IMG/VR virus record: IMGVR_UViG_3300019742_000005
Location: 1 to 45,631 of that record
DNA: 45,631 bases
From: a virus
Direction: 5' to 3' (one strand)
Position 1 is the stretch's first letter, and each line of letters starts with the position of its first letter. Position numbers and translations under genes: made by a program. The notes beneath the pieces are model-generated. The model made no database searches, had not been told where the DNA came from, and worked only from the letters and a program-made list of their open reading frames with translations. Below are positions 15,567 through 41,283 of the stretch, piece after piece.

Positions 15567-16349
15567 ATGAAATATATGGGAAGCAAGAGTAGGATAGCTA
15601 AATATCTTATTCCTATAATTACAAAAGATTTAAAAGAAGACCAATACTATGTTGAGCCTTTTGTAGGTGGATGTAATATGATTGATAAAATTGACCATCC
15701 TCTTAGAATAGGTGCTGATTTTAATGAATATTTAATAGCTATGTGGAAAGAATTGCAAAATGGTTGGATTCCTCCTGAGTTTATTGAGAGAGATTTTTAT
15801 TCAAAATGTAGAGATAAATATAATCAAGGTGTGTATAAAAATGAAGAAAAACATATTATTGGATATGTTGGCTTCAATGGTTCTTACGGTGGTAGATTTT
15901 TTGATGGAGGTTATGCAGGTAAATCAATGACCAAAAGTAATAAAGAAAGAAATTATCCTTTAGAATCATATAATAATATAACTAAACAATTACATAAGAT
16001 AAGAGATATTAAGTTCTTATATAGTAGTTATAATACATTAAATATACCCTCTAATTCTATTATCTATTGTGATATTCCTTATAAAAATTCAAAGGAGTAT
16101 AAGAGTTCTAAAGGTTTTAATCACGAGGATTTCTACAATTGGGCAAGAGAAATGGTAAAGCAAGGTCATAAAGTTTTTATTAGTGAGTATTATATGCCTG
16201 ATGATTTTGTATGTATATGGGAAAAGGAAGTTAGTTCTAGTTTATCTGCAAACGGTAAGCAAGGTGGTAATAAAAAATCAACTGAAAAACTCTTTATCCA
16301 TAAATCACAATATAAAGAACCAAACGAAATAAACCTAAACGAATTTTAA
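15567..16349 (+). CDS. D12-class N6-adenine DNA methyltransferase (Dam-like), DIPY variant, LNEF tail
   Basis: Transfers a methyl group from SAM to adenine N6 in DNA. The N-terminal MKYMGSKSRIAKY and the SAM motif I VEPFVGGCN (29-37) are typical of D12/Dam-type enzymes. Motif IV is CDIPY (Asp169-Ile-Pro-Tyr172) instead of the usual DPPY; Asp, Pro and Tyr are kept, so activity is plausible. The last residues are EINLNEF, the variant form of the LDEF tail shared with six other methyltransferases here. The gene follows the capsid-like gene by 23 nt and lacks a clear promoter of its own. No restriction enzyme is adjacent. Confidence 0.9.
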   Translation: MKYMGSKSRIAKYLIPIITKDLKEDQYYVEPFVGGCNMIDKIDHPLRIGADFNEYLIAMWKELQNGWIPPEFIERDFYSKCRDKYNQGVYKNEEKHIIGYVGFNGSYGGRFFDGGYAGKSMTKSNKERNYPLESYNNITKQLHKIRDIKFLYSSYNTLNIPSNSIIYCDIPYKNSKEYKSSKGFNHEDFYNWAREMVKQGHKVFISEYYMPDDFVCIWEKEVSSSLSANGKQGGNKKSTEKLFIHKSQYKEPNEINLNEF

Positions 16350-21806: not shown

Positions 21807-22621
21807 GTAATACATTTTTTAGATATTCAGGAACTAAGTTAAAATATACTAAACAAATAAATAGATATATTAATCAAAGTTCTAGTAATATTTATGTTGA
21901 GCCTTTTGTTGGTTCTGGTGCTGTTTTATTTAATCTTGAAAAAGAATTTAATGAGTATATTGTAAATGATATTGATAGAAACATTACAAGAATTTATAAA
22001 ACATTTAAGGAAATTAATTATAATGATTATTTAAAAGAGATTGAATTTATAGAGTCTAAATTTGGTTCTATAAAGGACTCAAAAGAGAGTTATTATAATT
22101 TTAGAAATTGGTTTAATGATGAATTTTGGAACACCAATACAACCAAAGAGGGTATATATTTACATTTTTTGGCTAACTCGTGTATCAATTCTTTTCTAAG
22201 ATTTAGTAAAAATGGTATGAATCAAAGTTATGGTAAAAGATTTTATAAATTAGATTTAGAATCTTTTGATAAAATTAAGAGTGTTCTAGGTAAAACTAAA
22301 ATATTTAATTTGAATTATAGAGATATATTTAAGAAATATCCAAATGCTTTATATTTTCTTGACCCTCCATACTTTAGTCAAAAATCATCATATTCGGGGT
22401 TTATATCCAATGATTTAATTGAGTTTTTGAAGTTAATAGAAGATAAAGAATATATTTATACTGATATTCTAAATGAGTTTAATAATTCTTTAGAAAATAG
22501 AGAATTAATTAGAGAGATGGTATCTACATCACCAAATAGAAAGATAGAAAAGAATGGAAATATAGAATATATTTTTAGTTCAATTATATTGGATGATGGG
22601 GATATTTTAGATGAATTTTAA
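21803..22621 (+). CDS. D12-class N6-adenine DNA methyltransferase (Dam-like), LDEF tail
   Basis: SAM-dependent adenine-N6 methyltransferase. FRYSGTKLKYTKQINRYI at the start and motif I VEPFVGSGAVLFN (about 33-45) are typical of D12 enzymes. Motif IV is FLDPPYFSQ, the canonical DPPY. The C-terminus ends DGDILDEF, the shared methyltransferase tail. It overlaps the primase stop by 4 nt and is followed by a C5 methyltransferase, so primase and three modification enzymes form one operon. The target sequence cannot be read from the protein; GATC-type specificity is only a possibility for this class. Confidence 0.93.
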   Translation: MSNTFFRYSGTKLKYTKQINRYINQSSSNIYVEPFVGSGAVLFNLEKEFNEYIVNDIDRNITRIYKTFKEINYNDYLKEIEFIESKFGSIKDSKESYYNFRNWFNDEFWNTNTTKEGIYLHFLANSCINSFLRFSKNGMNQSYGKRFYKLDLESFDKIKSVLGKTKIFNLNYRDIFKKYPNALYFLDPPYFSQKSSYSGFISNDLIEFLKLIEDKEYIYTDILNEFNNSLENRELIREMVSTSPNRKIEKNGNIEYIFSSIILDDGDILDEF

Positions 22622-22631
22622 AGGAGAGAAA

Positions 22632-23630
22632 ATGAAAAATAACAAACCAACTTTTGTTGATATATTTGCAGGTGCAGGTGGATTATCATGTGGATTAGAG
22701 ATGGCTGAATTTAAAGGTATATGTGCCTTAGAAATTAATGAATACGCTTGTGAAACATATAGTTCAAATTTTACTCACCCTATTATATGTGGAGATGTAA
22801 CAAAACAATCAATAAAGGATGAACTATATACTAATATAGAAAATTATTTTGGTTGTAATGATATTCAAGGTAAAGTTGATTTAATATCAGGGGGATTTCC
22901 ATGTCAGGGGTTCAGTATGTCAGGTAAAAGAGTTATAGAAGACCCTAGAAATTCACTATATAAAGAGCTTAAGGATATTGTAAATCACATTAAACCTAAA
23001 TTTATCCTTATGGAAAATGTTGTTGGGTTGAGGTCAATGTTAGGTGGGAAAGTAGAGGAGAAGATATTAGATGATTTTAGAGAAATTGGTTATAATATTG
23101 AAGTTAAAACACTAAATTCAGCTGATTATGGTGTCCCTCAAACAAGAAAAAGAGTGATATTTATAGGTAATAGAATAGGTGATGATATTATATATCCTAG
23201 AGCTTTATATTCAAAAGATGAATATAAAACGGTTAGAGACTCTATTGAAGATTTAATGGATAAAGATGAAACTTTTTGTGAAAATCATATCAAAACTAAA
23301 CACAAACCTCAAATGATAGAAAGATTAAAAGCTATTGAACCCGGTAAAAGTTTGTATAAAAATTATTCTGACGCTTGGAAGAAGATTGAATGGGATAAAC
23401 CGTCTTGTACAATTAAAGAAAACCATGGTGGAGTTAATGTTCACCCTGAATTAGGTCGTGTTATTACTCCTAGAGAAATGGCTAGACTTCAATCCTTTCC
23501 TGATGAATTTAAATTTAAAGGTGCTAAAAAGTGGCAACTTATACAACTTGGAAATGCAGTTCCTCCTTTAATGGCAAAAGCTATAGGGGAAGAAATTATA
23601 AAGAGTTTAGACTATGATTCAACTTTATAA
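22632..23630 (+). CDS. DNA cytosine-5 methyltransferase, without LDEF tail
   Basis: Methylates cytosine C5. All main motifs are present: I VDIFAGAGGLSCG, IV GGFPCQGFSMSG with catalytic Cys in PCQ, VI MENV, VIII QTRKRVIF, IX LARLQSFPDEF-type and X QLGNAVPP. At 332 aa it is a standard-length monospecific enzyme. I start it at ATG 22632, with AAGGAG just upstream; ATG 22611 lies inside the previous gene without a good site. It has no intein, unlike the other two C5 enzymes here. Its tail (SLDYDSTL) lacks the LDEF tag, and its end overlaps the next gene by 17 nt. Confidence 0.95.
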   Translation: MKNNKPTFVDIFAGAGGLSCGLEMAEFKGICALEINEYACETYSSNFTHPIICGDVTKQSIKDELYTNIENYFGCNDIQGKVDLISGGFPCQGFSMSGKRVIEDPRNSLYKELKDIVNHIKPKFILMENVVGLRSMLGGKVEEKILDDFREIGYNIEVKTLNSADYGVPQTRKRVIFIGNRIGDDIIYPRALYSKDEYKTVRDSIEDLMDKDETFCENHIKTKHKPQMIERLKAIEPGKSLYKNYSDAWKKIEWDKPSCTIKENHGGVNVHPELGRVITPREMARLQSFPDEFKFKGAKKWQLIQLGNAVPPLMAKAIGEEIIKSLDYDSTL

Positions 23631-24396
23631 TGGCGATTGTTTGGAAGTTATGGATAAACTTATAGAGGATGGTATAAAGGTTGATTCTATAATTTGTGAC
23701 CCTCCTTATGGAACTACAAATTGTTCTTGGGATTCTATTATACCCTTTGAAGAGATGTGGAGTAGATTAAATAAGTTGATTAAACCAAATGGTGCTATTG
23801 TTTTATTTGGTTCAGAGCCTTTTAGTTCTGCTTTAAGGATGTCCAATCTAAAGATTTATAAGTATGATTGGAAGTGGAGAAAATCTAAAGCTAATGGTTT
23901 TTTAAATGTTAAGAAAATGCCATTGAAAGATTTAGAGGATATATGTGTATTTTATAATAAATTACCTCTTTATCACCCACAAGGAGTTATTAGGGTAAAT
24001 AAGATTATAACCAATAATAAAGGTAAAAAAGATAACTCTAAACATTCAAGTGGACATAATGGTGGTTCTATGAAATCAGACAAATACATTCAAAAGTATA
24101 AAAACTATCCAAAACAAGTACTAGATTTTAAAATAGAACCTAAACCTCTACACAATACTCAAAAACCAATACCCTTAATGGAATACCTAATAAAAACATA
24201 TACTAATCAAGATGAGTTAGTTTTAGATTTTACCATGGGTTCAGGAACAACTGGTGTAGCTTGTAAACAATTAAATAGAAAATTTATAGGGATTGAGTTG
24301 GATAAAGATTATTTTGATATAGCTCAAAATAGAATAAACGAAAGTATTTTAGGTTCTAGTTTAGAAATAAAAGAAGATAATTTAGACGAATTCTAA
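23614..24396 (+). CDS. Beta-class amino DNA methyltransferase (N6A or N4C), LDEF tail
   Basis: SAM-dependent amino-methyltransferase in the DPPY-first (beta) order: motif IV CDPPYGTTNCSWD (Asp29-Pro-Pro-Tyr32) near the N-terminus, SAM motif I FTMGSGTTGVACK near the C-terminus, and HNTQKP between. The region between (about 95-170) is the target-recognition part. It shares most of its N- and C-terminal sequence with the 30202 enzyme, but the recognition part differs completely. That suggests a duplication followed by specificity change. It ends EDNLDEF. A late promoter begins 3 nt after its stop. Confidence 0.93.
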   Translation: MIQLYNGDCLEVMDKLIEDGIKVDSIICDPPYGTTNCSWDSIIPFEEMWSRLNKLIKPNGAIVLFGSEPFSSALRMSNLKIYKYDWKWRKSKANGFLNVKKMPLKDLEDICVFYNKLPLYHPQGVIRVNKIITNNKGKKDNSKHSSGHNGGSMKSDKYIQKYKNYPKQVLDFKIEPKPLHNTQKPIPLMEYLIKTYTNQDELVLDFTMGSGTTGVACKQLNRKFIGIELDKDYFDIAQNRINESILGSSLEIKEDNLDEF

Positions 24397-24422: not shown

Positions 24423-26735
24423 TTGCTATTCAAAGAAAACAAACTAAACAATATACTATCCCTATTTGACGGATTATCTTGTGGACAACTTGCTATAAAT
24501 CATTTAGGAATTGAATATAATAATTACTATGCTTCAGAAGTTGATAAATATGCTATGGCTGTTACAAATTATCGTTATCCAAATACAATACACTTAGGTG
24601 ATATAAAAAATATTATTCCTAAAGAACTTCCTGAAATTGATTTATTGATAGGTGGAAGTCCTTGTTTTGTAGCTGGAACTAAGGTTATATGTAAGAATAA
24701 AATTAAGAATATTGAAGATATAGAAATTGGTGATGAGGTTCTTACTCATAAAAATAGATACAGAAAAGTTTTAGCTATAGGTGGTGATGGTATAAAAGAA
24801 ATACACTCTCTTAAAGCTCATGGGATAGAAGATATTAAATGTACAGATAATCATCCATTTTTTGTAAGAGAATTTAATAAAGATAGTAGTTTTTCAGAAC
24901 CAAAAAAGGTTCAATTAAAAGACTTAAAAGAAAATATCCATTATCTAAAATTAGCAAATCCAAATAATACCTTAGAAATTCCTTTGAATTTAACTAAAAA
25001 TGATTATACTATTATAGACGACGAAATATGGCTACCTATAAGACAAATAAAACCTTTAGATTATTCTGAAAAAATCTATAATATAGAGGTAGAAGAAGAC
25101 CATACATATACAGCCAATAATGTAGTCACTTTTAATTGTCAATCATTCAGTTTCGCAGGTAAAAGAAACGGTATGACAACTAAAGAAGCCTTAGAAATCC
25201 TCTCATTAGAACACTACCTAGAACTAAAAGAACAAAACTTTGAATTTGAGGGTCAATCATATTTATTTTGGGAATATATGAGAATACTCAAAGCCACTAA
25301 ACCTAAATTCTTTCTATTAGAGAATGTAAAGATGACTCAAAAATGGCAAAAGGTTCTAACTGATGCTATTGGTGTTGAACCTATTCTTATTAATTCTGCT
25401 CTTGTTACGGCTCAAAATAGACAAAGATTATATTGGGTAGGTGAAAGACAAGAGGATGGAAAATATAAAGTTGTACCTATTGAACAACCAAAAGATAAAG
25501 GTATTATTCTTAGAGATATTTTAGATTATTCAATTGAAGATTTTTATCCAAAAGATAAAGAAATTACAAAAATAGATAATCATACCTCAAATGTAGGTAT
25601 TAAATGTGTAGCAGGATTTAAAGGTACAAAAAAATGGTTAGAGGATGGTAAAAATCTTCAAAGAAATTTTAGTCAAGGTGAGAGGATTTATTCAGAAGAT
25701 GGTAAAAGTATTACTCTAAGTTCTAATTCAGGTGGTACAGCAGGTAAAGGTTCAATGATTGTAGAGATTAAAGGAAATTGGAAACCTATATTTAAAAAGA
25801 ATTATTGTCAATGGGATTTAAATGGTAAAGGTAATGATTCACAAGACCAAAGAGCTTATTATATGGATGGAAAACACGGTACTATACCATCAAGCTCAAC
25901 TTCATCTAAATGTAAAGTTCTTATTGACGATATTCCAAAAGATATTAAAACTGGTGAATGTAAACTAAAAGAATATAATGAAAATTCGATATGCCATCAT
26001 ATAGCTGATGCAACTGATATTAAAGGTTTTGAATCAGTTAAGAGAGTATATTCCGAAACTGGTAAGTCACCTACTTTAACTTGTAATGGTGGAGGTAATA
26101 GAGAGGTTAAGGTTCTTATTGATGATACAATTCCATCTTTAGAAAATTGGTTAGGAACAAAAGAAGAATATTATGAATTATATCCTAAAATTCTTTGTGG
26201 AGCTTCAAGAGGTCGATATGTTGAGGGTGATAAAGGTGAAACTGAACAAATGCTTGAAATTAGACAAGATGAAAAGACTAATTGTATAACAACAGTCCAA
26301 AAGGATAATTATGTTACTTATGGTTTAGATAAAGGTGATAGAGTGCCATTGAAAGATATTAAAAATGAGTCCTGTACTAAAAATAATAAAGCCTATTGTT
26401 TAACTGCTAGATATGATGGGGCTGTTGCTTGGAACTCGTGCCAAAGAAAACAAAGAACTATGATACCTATTGAGGAAACTGATGAGATAAGCCCTAATGT
26501 ATATAATGGAGTTCGTTATAGAAAATTAACACCACTAGAAACAGAAAGATTACAAACGATGCCGGATGATTATTCTTTAGTACCTTATGGAGATAGAATG
26601 ATGAGTAATTCACAAAGATTCAAAATGATAGGAAATTCCTTCAGCAGAGATGTTATTAGTCATATTATTAGTTTTATGTTTGAGAAAAAGAAACCTAAAA
26701 GTTTAATTGAAGAGATTGATTTGGACGAGTTTTAA
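24423..26735 (+). CDS. Intein-containing, multi-module cytosine-5 DNA methyltransferase, LDEF tail
   Basis: C5 methyltransferase of the type with DNMT3-like motifs: I ILSLFDGLSCGQLA, IV GGSP|CQSFSFAG, VI LLENVKM, VIII SALVTAQNRQRLYW, X MIGNSFSRDV. An intein of 158 residues (81-238) separates the proline and cysteine of motif IV. Splicing would give a 612-aa enzyme and restore PCQ. Between motifs VIII and IX lie about four tandem similar segments (IYSEDGKSITLSSNSGG, RAYYMDGKHGTIPSSS, RVYSETGKSPTLTCNGG, AYCLTARYDGA). They resemble repeated target-recognition modules, so several target sequences are possible. The start is TTG 24423 after AAAAGGA. The C-terminus is EEIDLDEF. Confidence 0.93.
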   Translation: MLFKENKLNNILSLFDGLSCGQLAINHLGIEYNNYYASEVDKYAMAVTNYRYPNTIHLGDIKNIIPKELPEIDLLIGGSPCFVAGTKVICKNKIKNIEDIEIGDEVLTHKNRYRKVLAIGGDGIKEIHSLKAHGIEDIKCTDNHPFFVREFNKDSSFSEPKKVQLKDLKENIHYLKLANPNNTLEIPLNLTKNDYTIIDDEIWLPIRQIKPLDYSEKIYNIEVEEDHTYTANNVVTFNCQSFSFAGKRNGMTTKEALEILSLEHYLELKEQNFEFEGQSYLFWEYMRILKATKPKFFLLENVKMTQKWQKVLTDAIGVEPILINSALVTAQNRQRLYWVGERQEDGKYKVVPIEQPKDKGIILRDILDYSIEDFYPKDKEITKIDNHTSNVGIKCVAGFKGTKKWLEDGKNLQRNFSQGERIYSEDGKSITLSSNSGGTAGKGSMIVEIKGNWKPIFKKNYCQWDLNGKGNDSQDQRAYYMDGKHGTIPSSSTSSKCKVLIDDIPKDIKTGECKLKEYNENSICHHIADATDIKGFESVKRVYSETGKSPTLTCNGGGNREVKVLIDDTIPSLENWLGTKEEYYELYPKILCGASRGRYVEGDKGETEQMLEIRQDEKTNCITTVQKDNYVTYGLDKGDRVPLKDIKNESCTKNNKAYCLTARYDGAVAWNSCQRKQRTMIPIEETDEISPNVYNGVRYRKLTPLETERLQTMPDDYSLVPYGDRMMSNSQRFKMIGNSFSRDVISHIISFMFEKKKPKSLIEEIDLDEF
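24663..25136 (+). other. Mini-intein in C5 methyltransferase (158 aa)
   Basis: Begins CFVAGTKVICKNK (block A, Cys1) and has a block B-type TDNHPFF (His in TxxH). The end shows EKIYNIEVEEDHTYTANN (block F) and VVTFN followed by Cys (block G). No LAGLIDADG or HNH endonuclease is present. The penultimate residue is Phe rather than the usual His; terminal Asn and +1 Cys are intact. The +1 Cys is the methyltransferase's catalytic cysteine. Confidence 0.92.
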
Positions 26736-26753
26736 GTAAACTTTAGATATAAT
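26731..26753 (+). promoter_or_regulatory. Early-type promoter
   Basis: TTTAAGTAAACTTTAGA followed by TATAAT at 26748-26753. It overlaps the stop codon of the upstream methyltransferase. Confidence 0.55.
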
Positions 26754-26767
26754 AAAGGATAAAAGTT

Positions 26768-26775
26768 TATAAATA
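26768..26775 (+). promoter_or_regulatory. T4-type late promoter
   Basis: TATAAATA partly overlapping the left arm of the following hairpin, about 195 nt upstream of the primase-helicase start, so a long leader is implied. Confidence 0.55.
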
Positions 26776-26794
26776 CCTCTAACTATAGAGGTAT
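26773..26794 (+). terminator. Hairpin at start of the primase-helicase leader
   Basis: ATACCTCTA (26773-26781) pairs perfectly with TAGAGGTAT (26786-26794) around a 4-nt loop; AGTATTTT follows. It could end transcripts from the methyltransferase operon or act as an operator beside the promoters. Confidence 0.5.
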
Positions 26795-26820
26795 AGTATT
26801 TTAAAGGTCTTTAGAAGCCA

Positions 26821-26916
26821 TGTTTGTAAATTCATCTGCTGGTTTGGACTTCATTTGTCCATTCCAGAATTTTATGAAGAGCTTTAAGATACTATTTTAA
26901 GATGAATTTACAAACA
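26821..26916 (+). other. Structured leader or origin-like inverted repeat
   Basis: A perfect 17-bp inverted repeat (26821-26837 with 26900-26916) encloses a second, nested hairpin in which 26839-26842 and 26845-26849 pair with 26857-26861 and 26864-26867 across a TTCATTT loop. No gene occupies 26736-26970. It may be a regulatory RNA structure in the helicase leader or a protein-binding site such as a replication origin. Confidence 0.65.
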
Positions 26917-26970
26917 AAAATTCTAAATCTTTTCATCTACTCTTTAGAAATAAAAATTTGGAGAAAATAG

Positions 26971-29739
26971 ATGAAGGATATTGATGTAAAAATCAAAGAG
27001 GATAGACCAAAGATACAAGATTGTTATAGTTTAAGTGTTGGTGTGAACCCATTTAAAAGAAAATGTGGGATTATTAGATTTGAAACATTTAAGGAACTCA
27101 TAGATAAATTAGAAGGAGCTAAAAAACCAATACCTGCTAGTAAATCAAATAAGTTTATGAATAATTGGATTTCAGGTGATTTAGTAAAACCAAAAAATAA
27201 TTATATGTATTTCAAACAAGATAATTTTATAGTCAATGGTAGATTAGTAATACTTGATATTGATGATGGATTAAGTATAGAACAAGCTATATCAATATTA
27301 TCTATTGAAAAACTTAATTACTATCTATATAATTCAACCAATAATGGTAAATTTGGTAAAGAAAAATACAGAATCATTATACCATTAAATGAATCTATAA
27401 CAGATTTCAAAAGACTGACTACTTTATATAAGTCAATGAATGAGATGTTTAATGGAAAATTAGATAAATCTTGTCTTCATGTATGTAGAATTTATTATAA
27501 ACCTGAAAATTGGACGCCTCATATTGATAATAAAACTCCCATAACTGTTTCTCTTTGGAATATTGATAAAAATGATTTAGATGTGGACGCAACAATAGAA
27601 AGATTTAAAGATATGATTCCCATTGAAATCCCTAAAACTGCTATTAGGACAGGTGAAACACTTAACCCTTTGAATAAATTTCAATTGGCAAAGAATGGAG
27701 TTCAAATATCAGAAGATTCAAGAGATTCACTATCAAACATATTAGTTAATTCATTTGATTATATGTATTCTAAAAGTAGAAGAAATAAGCTAGTAAGATT
27801 GGCTGTTAATTTACTCCATGCTGGTAACAGTTTAGATGGAGTTGTTTACTATATGAATAAATCTAATTATTTTGAAAAACACACAGATAGACATCCTAAA
27901 CAATTTTTAGATATTGCATTTGATATATTTCAAAATGAGGGTTCGTCCATTTGGCACACAGTTACAAAAAAATATAAAGAGGATATAGATATGAAAGTAA
28001 AATCACATAAAGAGATATTTAATAAGAGTATTCATTTAGAGGAGGGTAAAATTTCTAACTTGAAAGAATTTAAGGATAATGATATATTCCCAAATGGTCA
28101 AGTATCATTATTAAGTTCACCAACAAATTCAGGTAAAACATTCTTTGTATTAAATGATTATAAAGATAGATTACCAGAAAATGAATGTGTTGTTTTAATA
28201 GTTCCTTTTGTAAACCTTAGGGATGAGTTAGAAAATTATGGAGCTTACATATATAGAAGTCAAGAAACTTTTAATTATCAAGAAGCAAAGAAAGCCAAAG
28301 CTATTGTAGTAGTATATAATTCAGGTGTAGACGCTATTTTATCTATGTGTGGTTCAAATTGTCATGTATTTATTGATGAAGCTCATAACTTCTACAGTTC
28401 TTTTTCTTATAGATTCTTTGCGTTAAATGAATTGTTTCATTTTAATATAACCAATAAAGAAAACATTAAAAAAGTTGTTTTAATGAGTGGTACATATAAT
28501 AGTTCTTATTATAAAAATGATTTTATTGATAATAAAATAGAGGTTACATCTAATAGAGAATCTAAGAATATTCAAATTATAGATACAAAAGATACATACG
28601 GTGTTCTTCTAAAAAATATAGAAAATTCAAAAGGTTCAAAACAAATTATATTTATCAACCACAAAATTAAAGGTTCTCTTATTAAAGACAAATTAAAAGA
28701 GATAAATATAAGTTCGATGCTGTATAATGCAGATACAAAAGAAAGTAAAGAAGTTCTATATTTAACTAAGAATAATAAAATACCTAATAATGTAGATATA
28801 GTTATAATGACTCAAAGTGGAGTAGAGGGTATATCTATTTTAGATGAAGTAAAGAATATACATATTTTAGGATTTTTAGGTACTGATGAAATAGAACAAT
28901 TAAGTAATAGACCTAGAAGAAATTCGGCAGATGTATTTATGTATATAGATTTATTACCGAGCTATGATAGTTTAACAAAAGATATAAACTTAGAAACTAA
29001 AGAAGAAACAAGACTAGAAGAGATGACTGATTATATGCTTTATGGTATAAATAATAATCAAATTCCTCATTCAAAAGAGGATGAAAGAAGAAATGTACAT
29101 ATTACAAGAGATTTAAGTAATGGTATCTTTTATAAAACACCCTTATTAATGGCTTCTTATAAGTACCAAGATGATTTAAATATAGAAAAGGGTAACTTAA
29201 ATATAATGTATTTTGGAGAGCTTTTAAAGGTTAAATATAGATTTAATGTATCTTTTATAAGAGAAACTTCAAAGGCGTCTAAATCTTTAAATTTTACAAG
29301 AGAAGAAAAGATTAAGTATGATTTAAACAGATTTAATAAAGAGGAGTCAAAAGATATAGAATTAGTTAAAAGATTAATAAAACAAGGTAAATTAACAAAT
29401 GAGGATGTTTATAAAACAATAGATATATGTCCAACTAATAAAGACCCTTTTAAAATGATATTAGATACACATTTATATAAGAACAATAAAATAGAAAATG
29501 ATTTTATTAAAAGTAAATATGTAATTGGAGAACTTTATACTAATGAACAAATTAAAATTAAATTTAAGGAGTATGTAGATTATAAAAATGAGTATAATAT
29601 AGAATCAAGAAAAGAGAAATTTAGTATAAATAACTATAAGAGATTGGTTAAATACTTGTTTAAAACAGAAATTAAAAGAGTATGGAACAAAGATAGAACT
29701 AAACTTAATACTCTTTTATATATAGAAAATATTATATAG
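26971..29739 (+). CDS. Primase-like / SF2 helicase fusion protein (922 aa)
   Basis: Large replication protein. The N-terminal 240 residues resemble archaeo-eukaryotic-type primase or plasmid-replication domains: VILDIDDG near 96-101 and KEKYRIIIPL near 130-138 are spaced like their catalytic segments. From about residue 375 an SF2 helicase core follows. It has Walker A SPTNSGKT (about 382-389), Walker B VFIDEAHNF (about 466), motif III VLMSGTY (about 503), IIFINHK (motif IV) and QLSNRPRRN (motif VI, about 641). This order is like viral replication-origin-binding helicases. The C-terminal 200 residues are charged and unassigned. The phage also has a gp61-type primase, so this is a second priming or origin system or acts on another substrate. 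The 5' leader holds an inverted repeat. Confidence 0.78.
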   Translation: MKDIDVKIKEDRPKIQDCYSLSVGVNPFKRKCGIIRFETFKELIDKLEGAKKPIPASKSNKFMNNWISGDLVKPKNNYMYFKQDNFIVNGRLVILDIDDGLSIEQAISILSIEKLNYYLYNSTNNGKFGKEKYRIIIPLNESITDFKRLTTLYKSMNEMFNGKLDKSCLHVCRIYYKPENWTPHIDNKTPITVSLWNIDKNDLDVDATIERFKDMIPIEIPKTAIRTGETLNPLNKFQLAKNGVQISEDSRDSLSNILVNSFDYMYSKSRRNKLVRLAVNLLHAGNSLDGVVYYMNKSNYFEKHTDRHPKQFLDIAFDIFQNEGSSIWHTVTKKYKEDIDMKVKSHKEIFNKSIHLEEGKISNLKEFKDNDIFPNGQVSLLSSPTNSGKTFFVLNDYKDRLPENECVVLIVPFVNLRDELENYGAYIYRSQETFNYQEAKKAKAIVVVYNSGVDAILSMCGSNCHVFIDEAHNFYSSFSYRFFALNELFHFNITNKENIKKVVLMSGTYNSSYYKNDFIDNKIEVTSNRESKNIQIIDTKDTYGVLLKNIENSKGSKQIIFINHKIKGSLIKDKLKEINISSMLYNADTKESKEVLYLTKNNKIPNNVDIVIMTQSGVEGISILDEVKNIHILGFLGTDEIEQLSNRPRRNSADVFMYIDLLPSYDSLTKDINLETKEETRLEEMTDYMLYGINNNQIPHSKEDERRNVHITRDLSNGIFYKTPLLMASYKYQDDLNIEKGNLNIMYFGELLKVKYRFNVSFIRETSKASKSLNFTREEKIKYDLNRFNKEESKDIELVKRLIKQGKLTNEDVYKTIDICPTNKDPFKMILDTHLYKNNKIENDFIKSKYVIGELYTNEQIKIKFKEYVDYKNEYNIESRKEKFSINNYKRLVKYLFKTEIKRVWNKDRTKLNTLLYIENII

Positions 29740-29744
29740 TTACA

Positions 29745-29802
29745 TTTTTTGTTACATTATATCTTATCTATAGGAATAAAGTTTTAAAAAAGTAACAAAA
29801 AA
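29745..29802. other. Inverted repeat after the primase-helicase gene
   Basis: TTTTTTGTTAC (29745-29755) pairs with GTAACAAAAAA (29792-29802) across 36 nt. It could be a bidirectional termination or processing signal; it lies in the 145-nt gap before the next gene. Confidence 0.45.
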
Positions 29803-29820
29803 AATATATAAATTCATCTA

Positions 29821-29844
29821 GGTAAGGTTCTTTAGAACTTTGCC
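29821..29844 (+). other. RNA hairpin upstream of late promoter
   Basis: GGTAAGGTTC (29821-29830) pairs with GAACTTTGCC (29835-29844) using two G-U pairs and a 4-nt TTTA loop. AAATTCATCT just before it also occurs in the 26821 inverted repeat. Confidence 0.45.
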
Positions 29845-29858
29845 CCATTTCAATCAAA

Positions 29859-29866
29859 TATAAATA
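29859..29866 (+). promoter_or_regulatory. T4-type late promoter
   Basis: TATAAATA, 18 nt before the 29885 start, with AAAAAGGA downstream. Confidence 0.6.
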
Positions 29867-29884
29867 AACAAAAAGGAACTAAAA

Positions 29885-30202
29885 ATGAGACTAAAAAGAA
29901 AAGAAATAGTTAAATCAATCGCAACAGAAGAACTAGACTTAATTATCAAAAAATCCCAATTATCAAGAGCAATTCACCTCAAAGAAAAATATAAAATAAA
30001 CGACAGATTTATTGTGAGTATAATCCATTTAGAGGAAAAACTAGATAAACTTTATGAGCTAGAATGGGAAGATGATTATTTAACTGGTTGGATACAAGAA
30101 TTAGAAACAGGTATTGAATTTACTAAACAAAATATGATGGTAGAGGGTGTAGTATTATATGATGGTAGGTTTGATGATTGGAAATGGGAAGTAGAGGATT
30201 AA
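29885..30202 (+). CDS. Hypothetical protein (105 aa)
   Basis: Unrecognised, charged helical N-terminal half and acidic, tryptophan-containing end (FDDWKWEVED). It is behind a late promoter, and its stop shares one base with the start of the following methyltransferase (TAATG), so the two are coupled. It may be a partner of that enzyme, but this rests on position only. Confidence 0.75.
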   Translation: MRLKRKEIVKSIATEELDLIIKKSQLSRAIHLKEKYKINDRFIVSIIHLEEKLDKLYELEWEDDYLTGWIQELETGIEFTKQNMMVEGVVLYDGRFDDWKWEVED

Positions 30203-30966
30203 TGATTGATTTATATAATGGTGATTGTTTGGAAATTATGGATAAATTAATTGAAAAGAATATTAAGGTTGATTCTATAATTACAGATATTCCTTATGGA
30301 ACTACAAATTGCTCTTGGGATTCAATTATTCCTTTTGATGAGATGTGGTTAAGATTAAATAAATTGATTAAACCTAATGGAGCTATTGTATTGTTTGGAA
30401 GTGAGCCTTTTAGTTCTGCTTTAAGAATGAGTAATATTGATGATTATAAATATGATTGGAAATGGAATAAAAAACAAGGTGGTAATCCATTAAACTCAAA
30501 AATACAACCTTTAAAAATACATGAAGATATAATGATTTTTAATAAACACAATTATAATCCAATTATGAGAGTTGGCAAAATGAGAACAAAGGGAGGTGTA
30601 AATAAACAACCTCTTCAAGTAGGTGATATAGATGTAACATATCCTTCATATAAAAATAATCTATACTTTCCAACTTCAATATTAGAAATCACAAATGCTG
30701 ATAGAACTAATAGAGTACATCCAACACAAAAGCCAATTAAATTAATGGAATATTTAATCAAAACCTATACAAATGAAAATGAAACTATCCTAGATTTTAC
30801 TATGGGAAGTGGTTCAACTTTGGTAGCTTGTAAAAATTTAAATAGAAAAGGTATAGGAATTGAGTTAGATAAAGGTTATTTTAAAATAGCTCAAAAGAGA
30901 GTTAATGAAGCTATAAAAGGCTCTAGTTTAGAAATATTAGAAGATATTAACTTAGACGAGTTCTAA
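30202..30966 (+). CDS. Beta-class amino DNA methyltransferase, DIPY variant, LDEF tail
   Basis: Paralogue of the 23614 enzyme. Motif IV here is TDIPYGTTNCSWD (Asp29-Ile-Pro-Tyr32), where the sister has DPPY. Motif I FTMGSGSTLVACK and HPTQKP are intact. The first 85 and last 80 residues are largely shared with the sister, but the middle (about 90-165) is unrelated, as expected for a different target sequence. I start it at ATG 30202, which overlaps the upstream stop and follows AGAGGA; ATG 30178 lies inside the upstream gene. It ends EDINLDEF. A late promoter starts 2 nt after the stop. Confidence 0.92.
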   Translation: MIDLYNGDCLEIMDKLIEKNIKVDSIITDIPYGTTNCSWDSIIPFDEMWLRLNKLIKPNGAIVLFGSEPFSSALRMSNIDDYKYDWKWNKKQGGNPLNSKIQPLKIHEDIMIFNKHNYNPIMRVGKMRTKGGVNKQPLQVGDIDVTYPSYKNNLYFPTSILEITNADRTNRVHPTQKPIKLMEYLIKTYTNENETILDFTMGSGSTLVACKNLNRKGIGIELDKGYFKIAQKRVNEAIKGSSLEILEDINLDEF

Positions 30967-30968
30967 TT

Positions 30969-30976
30969 TATAAATA
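30969..30976 (+). promoter_or_regulatory. T4-type late promoter
   Basis: TATAAATA directly after the methyltransferase stop; the TTTATAAATAATCA context recurs at 34703. Confidence 0.65.
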
Positions 30977-30994
30977 ATCAAAAAGGAACTAAAA

Positions 30995-31399
30995 ATGAAT
31001 CAACCAATAACCGAAAATATCAAATATACAGCCCTACAATTACTCAGAGAAACACAAGCAGAATTAACAAGGATAAATTTTTTAGAAGTTATATCATTAA
31101 TGAGTCCAAATAACCCAAATATAAAAGAAATATATAGTTATGAGGAAAGTCTAAATGATATTACAAATAAGATAGGAGAGTTTATCCAAAAAAATAAAAA
31201 TAAGGTTGATTTTGAAGTTCAGGAAGAACCTAATGAAAATGAGGATGAAGTTCCTAAAGAAGAGATAGAAGATAATTCAAAGAATACTAAAGAAGAGATT
31301 CCGAAAGATTCTAATGATGATAAAAAACCTAAAGATAAACCTAATGAAAAAATTGAAGAGAATGTTTATGTTGTTGATAGTTCTGTTTCGGGTTTATAG
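30995..31399 (+). CDS. Acidic, partly disordered protein (134 aa)
   Basis: Unrecognised. The first 65 residues are helical. Residues 70-120 are Glu/Lys/Asp/Pro-rich and repetitive (EEPNENEDEVPKEEIED, SNDDKKPKDKPNEK) and should be disordered. Late promoter upstream. It lies between two methyltransferase genes and could be a late structural or DNA-mimic-like protein; the acidity is seen, the role is not known. Confidence 0.75.
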   Translation: MNQPITENIKYTALQLLRETQAELTRINFLEVISLMSPNNPNIKEIYSYEESLNDITNKIGEFIQKNKNKVDFEVQEEPNENEDEVPKEEIEDNSKNTKEEIPKDSNDDKKPKDKPNEKIEENVYVVDSSVSGL

Positions 31400-31421
31400 A
31401 TTAAATAAAAAAAGGAAATAA

Positions 31422-32426
31422 ATGATTAAATCAAAATTAGGAATACCTTATATGGGTTCTAAAAGAAGTCTAGCTAAACCAATATTAGATTTTATAATAG
31501 AACAAAATCCAAATGCTAAGTATTTCTATGACCTTTTTGGAGGTGGTGGTTCTATGAGTTTTGAAGCTCTTCAAAGAAAACAGTTCAAAGAAGTATATTA
31601 TAATGAATTAAATACATCTATAGTTAGTCTACTTAATAAAATAAAAGAAGATGGTGTAACAGATGAGTTTTATGAGTGGGTTAGTAGAGAGGATTTTAAA
31701 GAATATAAGAATGATAGTGATTGGAAATCGGGACTTATTCAAACTTGTTGGAGTTTTGGTTCTAATCAAAAAGGTTATCTATATGGTATTCCTAAAGAAA
31801 ATAATAAAAGATTGATGCACAATATAATTGTTAATAGATGTATTAAATCATTAAATATTATAAATGGTAAATATAATTTAAGTATAGAATTAGGCTCAAT
31901 GGATGAAAGTATTAATAATAGAAGGTTAAGAGTACAAAGTTCCATATTTGATATGTTAGATGATGATAATATAGAAGGTGTTGGGAGTTTTATGATTGTT
32001 AAAAATAGTACAAGAAATGTTAGTCAACACCTACAAAATATAGATAAATTGAAGAAAATAGAAAATCTATATAATTTAAAGAACCTAGAGATTTCAAATC
32101 AATCTGCTTTTGATGTAAAAATAAATACTCCAATAGAAGAAACTATAATTTACCTTGACCCTCCATATATAAAAACTGGACAATATAAAGAAAAATTAAA
32201 TCATGATGAATTATACGAGTATATAGAAAATAGTCCATATAAAATCTACATGAGTTCTTACGAAAGCCATTTACCATCTGTATTTCAAATCAATCATAGA
32301 AGTACATTGTCAGCTAAGAATAACAACAAAAAAGTAGTTGAAAAGCTTTTTACTAACACTAAACCTATATTAAATAATTCATCATATAACTATTATTTAG
32401 ATTGTGATATATTAGATGAATTCTAA
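31422..32426 (+). CDS. D12-class N6-adenine DNA methyltransferase, LDEF tail
   Basis: Third Dam/D12-type enzyme. LGIPYMGSKRSLAKPI at the start, SAM motif I FYDLFGGGGSMSFEAL (about 35-50), and motif IV IIYLDPPYIKTGQY with canonical DPPY. At 334 aa it is longer than the other two D12 enzymes; the extra length lies in the recognition region between motifs I and IV. It ends DCDILDEF, like the 21803 enzyme (DGDILDEF) although the bodies differ. AAAAAAAGGA precedes the start. A late promoter begins at its stop. Confidence 0.93.
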   Translation: MIKSKLGIPYMGSKRSLAKPILDFIIEQNPNAKYFYDLFGGGGSMSFEALQRKQFKEVYYNELNTSIVSLLNKIKEDGVTDEFYEWVSREDFKEYKNDSDWKSGLIQTCWSFGSNQKGYLYGIPKENNKRLMHNIIVNRCIKSLNIINGKYNLSIELGSMDESINNRRLRVQSSIFDMLDDDNIEGVGSFMIVKNSTRNVSQHLQNIDKLKKIENLYNLKNLEISNQSAFDVKINTPIEETIIYLDPPYIKTGQYKEKLNHDELYEYIENSPYKIYMSSYESHLPSVFQINHRSTLSAKNNNKKVVEKLFTNTKPILNNSSYNYYLDCDILDEF

Positions 32427-32428
32427 AA

Positions 32429-32436
32429 TATAAATA
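32429..32436 (+). promoter_or_regulatory. T4-type late promoter
   Basis: TATAAATA right after the preceding stop, 16 nt before the intein-containing C5 methyltransferase. The usual AAAAAGGA site reads AAAAATGA here, so translation may be weak. Confidence 0.6.
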
Positions 32437-32452
32437 AACAAAAATGAAATAA

Positions 32453-34702
32453 ATGAATTTTAAATGGAGTATTAAAGAATTAGATAATATACCTAGACAA
32501 GATATAAAGGTATTTAGCTGTTTCAGTGGAGGTGGAGGGAGTTCACTCGGATATAAATTAAATGGTTACAATGTTTTAGGTAATATAGAAATAGATAAAA
32601 AACAAAACAAAAACTATATAGCTAATCTAAACCCTAAATATAATTATAATATGGACATTAGAGATGTTGTTAAAATGGCTAAGAATAAAGAACTACCTAA
32701 TGAATTATATGAGTTGGATATACTTGACGGAAGTCCACCTTGTTTTGATGGTGATACCCATGTTCTTACCGATAAGGGATATACTAAAATAAAAGATATA
32801 TGTGTTGGTAACAATGTTATTACTCATACTAATACATATAAAAAGGTATTATCCACAATGAACAAAAAAGCTACCGACTATTATGAACTTAAAATTCAAG
32901 GTTCGGAGTTATTAAAGGTTACAAAAGAACATCCTTTTTATGTTAGAACAATGACAAGAAAATATAATAAAGAGTTTAAAAAGGATACAAGATTTTTTAG
33001 TGAGCCATATTGGAAGTCTGTGGAGGCTTTAACAATAACAAAAAATTCTTGCAATTCAATATTATCACAAGACTATGTTGGGGTAGCTATTAACCAAGAA
33101 AGTAGATTACCTGTTTGGGAAGGAGTCACCTATCTTCATCCAACACAAGGTAAAATGGTGAAACTAAAGAAACAAGATATTGATTTTACACAAAAAAGTT
33201 TTTGGTATTTAGTTGGTAGATATTTAGGTGATGGTTGGTTGAGGATGAATGAATATGAAACAAAGAAAAAGAATAGGTATGAAGTCTATATATGTACAGG
33301 AAAACATGAGAAGGATTTATTTATAAAAGAAATGGATAAAAATCAATTCAAATATAATATGTATGAGGAGAGAACCACTTATAGATTTGTAATAAGCTCC
33401 AAAGAATTGACCATATACCTTTCACAATTTGGTAAAGGTGCTGAGGGTAAAAAACTTACATCTGATATAGTAGACCTACCTATAGATTTACAAAAGGAGT
33501 TTTTAAGGGGATATTTAGATGCAGACGGTCATTTTGATAAAAATAAAAATAAACAAACAGTGGTTAGTATATCCAAAGTACTCATATTAGGTATACAGCA
33601 ATGTATATATAAATCGTATAAAGTACCTACTACATTTATGACTAGAGTACCTTTTAAAGAACAACATTATATAGAAGGTAGACCTGTTAATCAAAATATT
33701 TCATACTCAATAGCATTTAATTATAAAACAACAAAACAACAACATAGTTTTTATGAAGATGGGTATATTTGGACACCATATAGAAAAAAAGAACTTATAT
33801 ATAAGGAACTTGATGTATATAATATAAGTGTTGAAAAAGATGAAAGTTATACAGTTAATAACCTAATATGTCATAATTGTTCTACATTTTCAATGTCGGG
33901 TCTTAGAGGAAAGATGTGGGGTAAAGAAAAGAAGTTCAGAGAGGGTCAAAAAGAACAAACATTAGATGATTTATTTTTTATCTTTGGTGATTTATTAAAT
34001 GAACTGAAACCTAAAATAGTAATAGGTGAAAATGTAAAAGGTATAATTCAGGGTTCGGCTAAAGAGAACTATGCAGAACCAATAATTGAAATGTATCAAA
34101 AGATGGGATATAGAGCTAAGTATTTTGTTATAAATTCAAAAAATACAAATGTACCTCAATCAAGAACTAGGGTATTTTTTATAGGTGTAAGAAATGATAT
34201 TTGCACACAAGATGAATTTAATGAGTTAGATAATCTGTTAGTTTTTGATGAGAAAGAAATACCTTTCAGTGAGGTTTCAAAAGTAGCTGATATAAATGAA
34301 AGTGAACTAAAAGAGATAACTAAAGGAACACAACAAAGGTATTTTTGGGATAATAAAATAGATACTGATAGGACTTTTGCTGATACCAATAAAAGAATCT
34401 ATAATAAAAGTAGTAATTTTGGTGATGTTATTATACATAATGATATTCCTTTTCCAACATTAAGGGCAAGTGGTTCATATATGTACCATCATAAACCTTT
34501 TCATATATCTAAAGAGGAATTAATACTTATTCAATCATTTCCTTATGATTATAATTTTATACCAAATACAAATGGAAATGTTCATTATATATTAGGAATG
34601 TCAGTACCTCCATTAATGACTAAAGCTATATCAAATGTTTTAGTGGAATACTTTATAAAAAAGACCATTAAAGTAGATATTATAGATTTAGATGAATTCT
34701 AA
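32453..34702 (+). CDS. Intein-containing cytosine-5 DNA methyltransferase, LDEF tail
   Basis: C5 methyltransferase with motif I VFSCFSGGGGSSLGY, motif IV DGSPP|CSTFSMSG, VI GENVKG, VIII VPQSRTRVFFIG, IX IQSFPYDYNF and X ILGMSVPP. A 379-residue intein (97-475) sits between the second proline and catalytic cysteine. After splicing the enzyme is about 370 aa, a normal length. The motif reads PPCS, not the common PCQ. It is not closely similar to the 24423 enzyme outside motifs, so the same insertion site in both is notable. It ends IIDLDEF. The ribosome binding site is unusually poor. Confidence 0.93.
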   Translation: MNFKWSIKELDNIPRQDIKVFSCFSGGGGSSLGYKLNGYNVLGNIEIDKKQNKNYIANLNPKYNYNMDIRDVVKMAKNKELPNELYELDILDGSPPCFDGDTHVLTDKGYTKIKDICVGNNVITHTNTYKKVLSTMNKKATDYYELKIQGSELLKVTKEHPFYVRTMTRKYNKEFKKDTRFFSEPYWKSVEALTITKNSCNSILSQDYVGVAINQESRLPVWEGVTYLHPTQGKMVKLKKQDIDFTQKSFWYLVGRYLGDGWLRMNEYETKKKNRYEVYICTGKHEKDLFIKEMDKNQFKYNMYEERTTYRFVISSKELTIYLSQFGKGAEGKKLTSDIVDLPIDLQKEFLRGYLDADGHFDKNKNKQTVVSISKVLILGIQQCIYKSYKVPTTFMTRVPFKEQHYIEGRPVNQNISYSIAFNYKTTKQQHSFYEDGYIWTPYRKKELIYKELDVYNISVEKDESYTVNNLICHNCSTFSMSGLRGKMWGKEKKFREGQKEQTLDDLFFIFGDLLNELKPKIVIGENVKGIIQGSAKENYAEPIIEMYQKMGYRAKYFVINSKNTNVPQSRTRVFFIGVRNDICTQDEFNELDNLLVFDEKEIPFSEVSKVADINESELKEITKGTQQRYFWDNKIDTDRTFADTNKRIYNKSSNFGDVIIHNDIPFPTLRASGSYMYHHKPFHISKEELILIQSFPYDYNFIPNTNGNVHYILGMSVPPLMTKAISNVLVEYFIKKTIKVDIIDLDEF
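32741..33877 (+). other. Full-length intein with LAGLIDADG endonuclease (379 aa)
   Basis: Begins CFDGDTHVLTDKGYTKI (block A), block B-type TKEHPFYV, and ends YNISVEKDESYTVNN, LICHN followed by Cys (blocks F and G, His-Asn-Cys intact). The middle has two LAGLIDADG motifs: WYLVGRYLGDGWLR and LRGYLDADGHFDK. The acidic residues needed for cleavage are present, so the intein may still home. The +1 Cys is the methyltransferase nucleophile. Confidence 0.94.
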
Positions 34703-38920: not shown

Positions 38921-39700
38921 TTGATTAGCAAAAAATACAACGAAATACTCACAAATATACTTAAAATAGAGAATAAAAACACACAAAACTTTAATACAAT
39001 AATACTAAGGGATTATCAACTCAATACCATTGAAAGTCTAAAAATACATAATACTATAATTAAATCCCCTAGACAATCAGGTGCTACTAAAATAGGTTTA
39101 ATATGGATTATAGACACTATTATAAATTCCATAGAATTAGGTAAAAACCCTAGGATAGGTATTAAAACTCATAACGCTAATATATCTAAAAAACATATAA
39201 GAATTATAGAAGACTTATCGGTAATATATGATATACCTTTTACGGATTATATTGAGATATTTGACGAAAGAAACTTACAAAATATAGGATATGATTATAT
39301 ATTTGTAGATGACTATGAAACTATAGAATCTAGTGATATATATTCTATATTGAACTACAAAAAAGCTAAAATCTTATTAACTTGTACTGACTATAGACAT
39401 TTTAAGGATATAAAATCTTTTAAAAATATAGAGGTGGATTGGAAAGATGTCCCTAGATATAAAGATGGAGTTTTACTAAAACCTTATGAATTTAAAAGTT
39501 ATGCTATATCTAAATTTGGCCATAAAAATGCCTATGATATGTTTGGAATACCGTCTATAACTAAGATAAATAATATTTTATTAAAATCTGAAAATTCTAA
39601 AAAGATGAAAGACGCTGATATAAAACCTAGCCAATTATTTAACTATTTTTTGGATGGGTTATGTGTTGATGATTTGATTGATATTAAGAGAGGGTTTTAG
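38921..39700 (+). CDS. Degenerate terminase-ATPase paralogue (259 aa)
   Basis: Resembles only the N-terminal packaging-ATPase domain of gp17-type terminases; the nuclease domain is absent. LRDYQLNTIESL corresponds to the adenine-binding YQ motif. SPRQSGATK (49-57) aligns with the terminase P-loop PRQ-SGKT but has Ala55 in place of the catalytic lysine. YIFVDDYE (127-133) aligns with Walker B FVDE, with Asp for the Glu. ILLTCTD matches the coupling motif. EVDWKDVPRYKDG aligns with EADWKEVPRFKKNG of the neighbouring terminase. I infer loss of ATP hydrolysis and a regulatory, dominant or structural role, or a relic of a homing event. Start is TTG 38921 after AAAAAGGAG. Confidence 0.72.
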   Translation: MISKKYNEILTNILKIENKNTQNFNTIILRDYQLNTIESLKIHNTIIKSPRQSGATKIGLIWIIDTIINSIELGKNPRIGIKTHNANISKKHIRIIEDLSVIYDIPFTDYIEIFDERNLQNIGYDYIFVDDYETIESSDIYSILNYKKAKILLTCTDYRHFKDIKSFKNIEVDWKDVPRYKDGVLLKPYEFKSYAISKFGHKNAYDMFGIPSITKINNILLKSENSKKMKDADIKPSQLFNYFLDGLCVDDLIDIKRGF

Positions 39701-39702
39701 AT

Positions 39703-41283
39703 ATGGATATTAAAGCTGAATTGATGAAACTTAATGTTAGAGATGAAAATACACTGGATGAATATATAGAGTTTTGTGTAATTAATTCCAATAAAGATGA
39801 TTATGATTGTGTTCACCATATTATACCTAAAGCAAAAAGTCTATTTCCACAATATAAAAACTTAAAGAATAATAGTTGGAACGCTTCATACCTATCCTAT
39901 AAAAATCATTTTATAGCTCATTGGTTATTACTTAAAGCCATAAAAGAAAAATCTATTTCATTTGCATTCTTTTCTATGAAAAATAAAGATTTGGTAAATG
40001 GAAGAATTGATAAAGATACTATTGAGATGTATGCGAGTGAATATGAGGAGTTTTATAAAGACCACAAAGAGATGTTAAAAGATTTGTCAAGAGATATAGT
40101 ATCTTGTCTTGATTTAGATGGTAATAAAGTTAGAGTCTCATCTAAAGAATACCAAGATAACAAAAATAAATATGTTTCATTCTCTAACAATATGGTTAAT
40201 GTATTTGATTCAGAACAGAATAAAACTGTAAGAATATACACTAAAGATTATAACAAGGATATTCATTTTGTTTGGAGTAAAGGTAAATCTCGATTTTACA
40301 ATAAACAGCTCAAAACTTTTGAATTTATGGATGCCAAGGATAAAAAAGATTATCATATACATTCAAATAAAGGTGTGTTTATACTGAGAGATAATAAAGT
40401 TATAGGTATAAAGATTAGAGAAATAATTGATTGTGATGTTTTATTAGATGATAGTGATGTTAGCAAATTTTATAATCCTATCGATTTTGATATTTACATA
40501 GATTTAATTGATAGAGGTATATATAGAGTTGATGAGTTTAGTATCTTTTATAATATATATACTAAAAAAATAGGAATATATAAAGGTAAAAAACCTCATC
40601 TATTAAAAACAAAATATAATAAAATAAAATGTTTCGATAGAACTACTGGTAGGAGTGTAAAAATACAGGGTTTAGATTTTGATAAAAAATTATACCTAAT
40701 AAAATATAAAGGTATATATTTCAAAGATATTGATAGTAGATTATACTATACAAAAGATGTCTTGTATGAAAGCCAATCGTATGTATTTATCAAGAATGAG
40801 AGAAAAAAAAGAAGTCCTAATAGAACCCCTACAATAAAAGGGCAAGTATCATGTAAAGATATTGATGGAAAATTCTACAAAGTATCAAAGCAAGAGTTCG
40901 ATAGTAGAGACGATTTATTTGGAGTTAATAAAGGATATATTAATTGTATTAGTTTAGAGACAAATAAATATGTAAAAATAACATCAAAACATTATAAAGA
41001 AAATAAACATTTATATAAAGTAAAGACTGGTGTTAAAAATAAAGGTACTATAACAGTATATATTTATGATAAGGATAGAAATTTAATTCATATAACAGAT
41101 GATGCCTTTAATCGCTATTGTGATAAACATAGACTACCACAAAAAGCTTTATATAAATCAATGAAAGATGGAGTAGGAATATATACTAAAGTAAATGGTA
41201 AACATTATATAAACAAACACCCAGAGTTACATAAGTTTATTGGCTGGACAGCAAGTTATACAAAATATGAGGATGTATTATGA
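39703..41283 (+). CDS. HNH homing endonuclease-like protein with tandem modules (526 aa)
   Basis: The N-terminus has an HNH-type site: CVHHIIPKAKSLFPQY (His38-His39), then SWNASYLSYKNHFIAHW (Asn60, His69, His73). Behind it are at least five related segments of about 45 residues. Examples are CLDLDGNKVRVSSKEY, VFDSEQNKTVRIYTKDY, CFDRTTGRSVKIQGLDF, CKDIDGKFYKVSKQEF and CISLETNKYVKITSKHY; they look like repeated DNA-binding modules. The gene sits between the terminase paralogue and the terminase, overlapping the latter's start by 4 nt. That position is typical of free-standing homing endonucleases that protect a neighbouring essential gene. A role in terminase-gene homing is inferred. Confidence 0.75.
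   Translation: MDIKAELMKLNVRDENTLDEYIEFCVINSNKDDYDCVHHIIPKAKSLFPQYKNLKNNSWNASYLSYKNHFIAHWLLLKAIKEKSISFAFFSMKNKDLVNGRIDKDTIEMYASEYEEFYKDHKEMLKDLSRDIVSCLDLDGNKVRVSSKEYQDNKNKYVSFSNNMVNVFDSEQNKTVRIYTKDYNKDIHFVWSKGKSRFYNKQLKTFEFMDAKDKKDYHIHSNKGVFILRDNKVIGIKIREIIDCDVLLDDSDVSKFYNPIDFDIYIDLIDRGIYRVDEFSIFYNIYTKKIGIYKGKKPHLLKTKYNKIKCFDRTTGRSVKIQGLDFDKKLYLIKYKGIYFKDIDSRLYYTKDVLYESQSYVFIKNERKKRSPNRTPTIKGQVSCKDIDGKFYKVSKQEFDSRDDLFGVNKGYINCISLETNKYVKITSKHYKENKHLYKVKTGVKNKGTITVYIYDKDRNLIHITDDAFNRYCDKHRLPQKALYKSMKDGVGIYTKVNGKHYINKHPELHKFIGWTASYTKYEDVL

Follow-up and report, generated by a model that had tools for sequence, protein, structure and literature searches.

In the genome record of an uncultured bacterial virus, two genes for C5 cytosine methyltransferases are each split by an intein at the same bond of motif IV, where the catalytic Cys follows a Pro. 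The two are very probably ordinary class 1 inteins, separately acquired, at a Pro/Cys site of motif IV that is favoured in phage C5 methyltransferases. Active-centre inteins have been described in DNA methyltransferases, terminases and thymidylate synthase of phages (PMC5050341), and a methylase intein is also described in PMC9957025; we found no description of the C5 Pro-Cys site in the open literature. The inteins themselves are of a known kind, but it is unusual to find two of them together, and one is an atypical mini-intein. More surprising still is a C-terminal tail common to most of the methyltransferases of the same stretch of DNA.

Results

The window, meaning the whole analysed stretch of 45,631 nucleotides (IMG/VR record IMGVR_UViG_3300019742_000005), is a linear virus record of 45.6 kb with 26% G+C. 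Its T4-like genes encode a gp32-like ssDNA-binding protein, a T4 RNase H-like exonuclease, a gp23-like capsid protein and a T4-type large terminase, and its terminase and ssDNA-binding protein place Vibrio phage Va1 and Campylobacter phages nearest to it among cultured phages. Eight DNA methyltransferases (three D12 adenine, two N4/N6 and three C5) lie within 15.5-34.7 kb, and two of the C5 genes, here called A and B, hold the inteins:

15567, 21803 and 31422: D12 adenine methyltransferases
23614 and 30178: N4/N6 methyltransferases, 67% identical to each other
22611, 24423 and 32453: C5 methyltransferases
22611..23630, + strand: third C5 methyltransferase, motif IV uninterrupted (GGFPCQGFSMSG), without the common C-terminal tail
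24423..26735, + strand: C5 cytosine methyltransferase A precursor, 770 aa (TTG start as listed), extein 612 aa, Pfam DNA_methylase E 4e-35
24663..25136, + strand: intein A, class 1-like mini-intein, 158 aa, endonuclease domain absent, ends Phe-Asn
32453..34702, + strand: C5 cytosine methyltransferase B precursor, 749 aa, extein 370 aa, Pfam DNA_methylase E 2.5e-35
32741..33877, + strand: intein B, full-length class 1-like, 379 aa, LAGLIDADG endonuclease, ends His-Asn

The position and domain content of the inteins, the recurrence of their site and their separate relationships are all read from sequence. Both methyltransferase frames are open throughout, and the junctions (marked by a slash) are IGGSP/CFVAGT...VVTFN/CQSFSF for intein A and DGSPP/CFDGDT...LICHN/CSTFSM for intein B, each insertion separating the motif IV Pro from the catalytic Cys. 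Excision leaves contiguous C5 enzymes of 612 and 370 aa with GGSPCQSFSFAG and GSPPCSTFSMSG, in which SAM motif I, the PC of motif IV, the ENV of motif VI and the QxRxR of motif VIII are all present (Pfam and alignments with relatives). The insertion position is exact because intein-free relatives, such as L022 (ELYELDILDGSPPCSSFSMSG / ELDILDGSPPCSSFSMSG), read through the site without a gap. The initial annotation had placed the end of both inteins right before the motif IV Cys, and the junctions and intein-free relatives bear this out. Its sizes, 158 aa without endonuclease and 379 aa with LAGLIDADG, agree with the boundaries and with Pfam, and the exteins are, as it held, clearly different C5 enzymes (about 30% identity over 138 aa). 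The third C5 enzyme is indeed intein-free, with its start at the ATG at 22611 and not at 22632, which is an internal in-frame ATG.

Intein A carries Cys1, a Cys at +1 and the block B TxxH (CTDNHPF). Pfam finds a Hint/intein domain and no LAGLIDADG in precursor A, and the AlphaFold2 model of the intein is a complete Hint fold (pLDDT 87.5), whose closest solved structures are the mini-inteins gp41-1 (best, E 9e-10), DnaB and Prp8 (Foldseek, PDB); the AlphaFold2 model of the whole precursor has a pLDDT of 46, too poor for use. At the C terminus, where class 1 inteins usually end His-Asn, the Asn is retained and the penultimate His is replaced by Phe. Class 1 membership holds but is weakened by this Phe; the penultimate His is not strictly defining, because natural class 1 phage inteins without it splice (PMC5050341). 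The C5 genes L113, L120, L130, L136 and L138 on other viral contigs align with host gene A as orthologues of the same enzyme type, and their inteins retain the endonuclease and end His-Asn. Intein A, having lost its endonuclease, is probably fixed, and given the absent penultimate His its splicing might be slow or poor.

In intein B the class 1 residues are complete: Cys1 (CFDGDT), TKEH for TxxH, and His-Asn followed by the +1 Cys (CHN/C). Pfam matches a Hint/intein domain and LAGLIDADG_3 (E 9e-7), and both acidic LAGLIDADG motifs (YLGDG and YLDADG) are seen by eye in the alignment. Judged from motifs only, the endonuclease appears intact and the intein may be mobile.

One alternative holds that one or both inteins no longer splice and that the genes are decaying, to which the non-canonical Phe and the absent endonuclease of intein A would lend themselves. 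Against it, no stop codon interrupts either frame in more than 2.2 kb, the methyltransferase motifs on both sides are intact, both C-terminal tails are retained and the predicted Hint fold of intein A is complete; we regard it as extremely unlikely.

The window holds four inteins in total, all at conserved motifs. The two others are mini-inteins in the large terminase gene (41280-44123), at 41682-42119 (146 aa) and 42879-43283 (135 aa), one just before Walker A SGKT and the other before SFLGSSDT; both end SHN with Ser at +1. Two ORFs (window 38921-39700 and 39703-41283) directly precede the terminase gene: a short one that is terminase-like, with SPRQSGAT and a weak match to phrog_2, and one for an HNH-type endonuclease. 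Together they may represent a mobile endonuclease accompanied by an incomplete copy of the terminase.

The Pro/Cys bond of motif IV in phage C5 methyltransferases is, on sequence comparison, an intein hot spot. A tblastn search of cultured phages with intein B returned 71 records. The P/C junction before the motif IV Cys recurs in Erwinia, Dickeya and Yersinia jumbo phages, in phage P1 Dmt, in Mannheimia phage 587AP2, in Lactobacillus phage Nyseid, in Propionibacterium phage B22 and in EBPR siphovirus 2, and the junction in Pseudomonas phage Lana is D/C. An IMG/VR scan with junction alignment gave at least 80 loci, nearly all C5 enzymes split before the motif IV Cys, and thereby adds at least about 75 viral contigs with related inteins before this Cys. 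P/S junctions returned by a regular expression in the IMG/VR loci were an artefact of HNCQS, the true junction being P/C. Related inteins are also present before this Cys in about 130 plasmid records, mostly P1-like. In phage P1 itself (L014) a LAGLIDADG intein precedes the C5 catalytic Cys of Dmt, and the record annotates Dmt only. The initial annotation had proposed searching C5 enzymes for inteins at PC, and its premise that inteins favour conserved active-site motifs fits the wide recurrence found.

Occupancy is patchy among bacterial orthologues of extein A, as expected of a mobile element: GGSPCQ.[FWLI]S is uninterrupted in 74 of 80 bacterial relatives of methyltransferase A and an intein is present in one of the 80, by a scan with extein motifs upstream of the site. 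A close relative of the phage with an empty site did not appear in the viral scans (no match for extein A, one distant match for extein B). Mannheimia phage 587AP2 and L013 were excluded as controls, their frames being broken after the intein. In 587AP2 (L010:2264-4584) the C5 frame ends shortly beyond its intein, and the remaining methyltransferase part and an HNH endonuclease are annotated as separate genes.

Across 90 distinct related inteins, 311 to 380 aa in length, position -1 is Pro in 74 and Asp in 14, position +1 is Cys in 89 and the penultimate residue is His in 86. Intein A is the outlier, the sole mini-intein and the sole one with a penultimate Phe, in a sample gathered partly by full-length similarity, so that mini-inteins may be under-counted. 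None of 50 other viral records that carry such an intein has a second one by full-length match. A pair at this site in one contig is thus unusual, which is the part of the initial annotation's emphasis on a same-site pair that stands; the shared site itself is explained by the widespread hot spot.

The initial annotation had also suggested homing between the paralogues and had called for comparison of the intein sequences and DNA flanks. The comparison spoke against homing between A and B, and separate acquisition is favoured by the sequence relationships. One intein copied from one C5 gene into the other within the phage lineage, with later loss of the endonuclease from A, would account for the shared site, the shared broad intein family (39% identity over the N-terminal splicing region) and the GSPC-type motif common to both target genes. 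However, at the DNA level the two inteins have a local score of 38 and the shuffle maximum is 39, leaving no similarity above shuffling. Their 48-bp target sites match at only 24 of 48 bases, and the third C5 gene is empty although its site is closer to that of A (33/48). The nearest relatives of each intein are in other phages, and A and B are not each other's closest relatives: intein A groups with the inteins of the GGSP-type C5 genes L120, L113, L130, L138 and L115, and intein B with L106, L116 and L104, both in a FastTree tree of 88 inteins and in a more careful IQ-TREE tree of 33. Forcing A and B together as sisters costs 26 log units, with a borderline p-AU of 0.041 from trees of 141 columns in which deep branches are weak. 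By BLAST, the best intein-bearing relatives of extein A are L120, L136, L130 and L113, and those of intein A include L120, L113, L136 and L130. For extein B they are L133, L021 and jumbo phages, and for intein B they are L101-L107. From these relatives we infer that A travelled with orthologues of its own gene and that B switched host gene type. Homing between the paralogues is therefore very unlikely. Separate acquisition has its own weak points, in that two independent arrivals are a somewhat unlikely coincidence where double occupancy is rare and that the AU value is borderline, and ordinary splicing has to accommodate an intein A without the penultimate His kept in 86 of 90 relatives.

During protein splicing an intein moves the N-extein onto the +1 Cys and then frees that Cys. 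Under the preferred reading of two ordinary, separately acquired inteins, each would be translated together with its host protein and would excise itself in four steps: an N-S shift at Cys1, transfer to the +1 Cys, Asn cyclisation and an S-N shift. The +1 Cys left free after splicing would be the catalytic nucleophile. That the +1 splicing nucleophile is also the methylation nucleophile had been pointed out from the sequence, and it holds; for this reason the unspliced methyltransferases should be inactive, which we regard as a strong inference. The site would be retained for two reasons: it is so conserved that a homing endonuclease can recognise it across many C5 genes, and losing the intein imprecisely would destroy the enzyme; a regulatory role would not be needed.

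Splicing might instead gate methylation, as the initial annotation also suggested, with slow or conditional splicing (redox, temperature or host state) delaying C5 methylation to late infection and the inteins kept as a switch. Activity must indeed await splicing, the +1 Cys being the catalytic Cys. A Pro stands at -1, the penultimate His is absent from intein A, and inteins interrupt two conserved motifs of this phage's large terminase as well. The penultimate residue can greatly change splicing rate, and one phage intein favours a non-His residue (PMC5050341). Yet the intein of that paper spliced faster, not slower, with its natural non-His residue, and the -1 Pro is imposed by the motif and present in 74 of the 90 relatives. 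Uninterrupted orthologues are the rule, so that a switch is not needed for the role of the enzyme, and a conserved regulatory feature was not found. We consider a switch unlikely.

The methyltransferases of the window have a second feature in common. Among the 157 window ORFs of at least 50 aa, exactly seven have [DN]EF as their last residues, and each encodes a methyltransferase; the seven span three classes (D12, N4/N6 and C5). The tail peptides are NEINLNEF, DGDILDEF, KEDNLDEF, EEIDLDEF, EDINLDEF, DCDILDEF and DIIDLDEF, with the common pattern [LN][DN]EF:

16323-16346, 22595-22618, 24370-24393, 26709-26732, 30940-30963, 32400-32423 and 34676-34699: [LN][DN]EF tails
26709..26732, + strand: EEIDLDEF, the C-terminal end of methyltransferase A and possibly a peptide for clamp docking; orthologues in other phages lack it
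34676..34699, + strand: tail DIIDLDEF of methyltransferase B, C-terminal end

The eighth methyltransferase of the window (22611) lacks the tail. Chance was rejected as the source of the common tail, which is found in 7 of 8 methyltransferases and 0 of 44 other listed ORFs (Fisher p = 6e-8, a guide only, the pattern having been picked after seeing the data).

In T4, gp43 (the DNA polymerase), gp55 (the late sigma factor) and gp33 each bind the gp45 sliding clamp through a hydrophobic, acidic C-terminus, and these ends can replace one another (PMC2988020). The methyltransferase tails are likewise hydrophobic and acidic, NLDEF or IDLDEF set beside the gp43 ends NTLDEWL, SLEDFFG and LIDDEEW. Among the best 80 viral relatives kept for the N4/N6 enzymes, the tail occurs only in those on one 26.8-kb contig, G001 (L270/L271). 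Its three such enzymes end ...TDNLDEF, ...LIDLDEF and ...NLDSFDEF, and its family B DNA polymerase ends KENLIDDEEW. Campylobacter phage NCTC12673 has such an end on one ORF only, that of the gp43 polymerase (NTLDEWL); its gp55 ends ESELDIWEN. On cyanophage-like T4-like contigs gp43 ends SLEDFFG (L273-L287) or ATLEDFFG, and the D12 Dam ends STLEDFFG, PSLDDFFG or NTLDGFFS; L274:4974-5855 is one locus at which Dam ends like the polymerase of its own contig. The tail pattern is present in 38 of 56 distinct Dam ORFs and 20 of 28 polymerase-query matches, compared with 7 of 361 other ORFs, and three of these seven resemble another methyltransferase by an NPPF motif (the tested fragment had no Pfam match). 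The dam gene of cyanophage Syn19 is flanked by the clamp-loader genes gp44 and gp62.

Docking on the sliding clamp is the simplest reading of the common tail on these sequence likenesses. No clamp gene was identified in the 45.6-kb window. We give an even chance to the proposal that methyltransferases of T4-like phages dock on the clamp by this tail and so would mark new DNA as it is made. That the C5 enzymes of the window would additionally be switched on only by protein splicing is improbable. A search of the open literature found no report of clamp docking by phage methyltransferases, nor of a coupling of phage DNA methylation to replication by this route.

On G001, a related T4-like contig, the clamp-loader (L270:13156-16198) gp44 gene is split into two ORFs at Walker B DE/CD, and the halves carry apparent split-intein parts with a free-standing endonuclease ORF between them, a fractured-gene arrangement.

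Discussion

The inteins in the C5 methyltransferases of P1 (Dmt), the Erwinia, Dickeya and Yersinia jumbo phages, Nyseid, B22 and EBPR siphovirus 2 have the same insertion point as A and B, and there too the +1 Cys is the motif IV nucleophile. Those inteins have a Hint plus LAGLIDADG-type architecture, are about 310-380 aa long, end His-Asn and occur, as far as seen, one per phage. The window phage differs from these cultured phages in its 158-aa mini-intein A ending Phe-Asn and in having two C5 genes split in one contig. The inteins of mycobacteriophages (Kelley et al. 2016, PMC5050341; PMC9957025) are likewise phage-borne class 1 inteins in active centres, including those of DNA methyltransferases, with a variable penultimate residue as here, but the methylases listed in PMC5050341 are of N4/N6 type and C5 enzymes are absent from the list.

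Related inteins also stand before a Cys in host enzymes unrelated to C5 methyltransferases, namely the thymidylate synthase of Aeromonas phage PS1 (L011) and the class III ribonucleotide reductase of Lactococcus phage P1048 (L009). More broadly they occur in class III ribonucleotide reductase of Lactococcus phages and in an N4-type methylase of mycobacteriophages. In the PS1 enzyme (L011:2501-3511) the intein precedes the catalytic Cys motif at LTP/CH; thymidylate synthase and the C5 enzymes are unrelated, both use a Cys nucleophile on a pyrimidine, and both hold related inteins at a similar P/C motif.

The catalytic Pro-Cys of C5 methyltransferases is a recurrent phage intein site, even in Dmt of the laboratory phage P1, for which no intein is annotated, and any effect of splicing on DNA methylation could therefore be looked for in standard E. 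coli. In A and B separate invasions have very probably ended at the same motif, which makes the pair a clear case of such convergence. If it is true that the tail binds the sliding clamp, phage DNA methylation would be coupled to replication.
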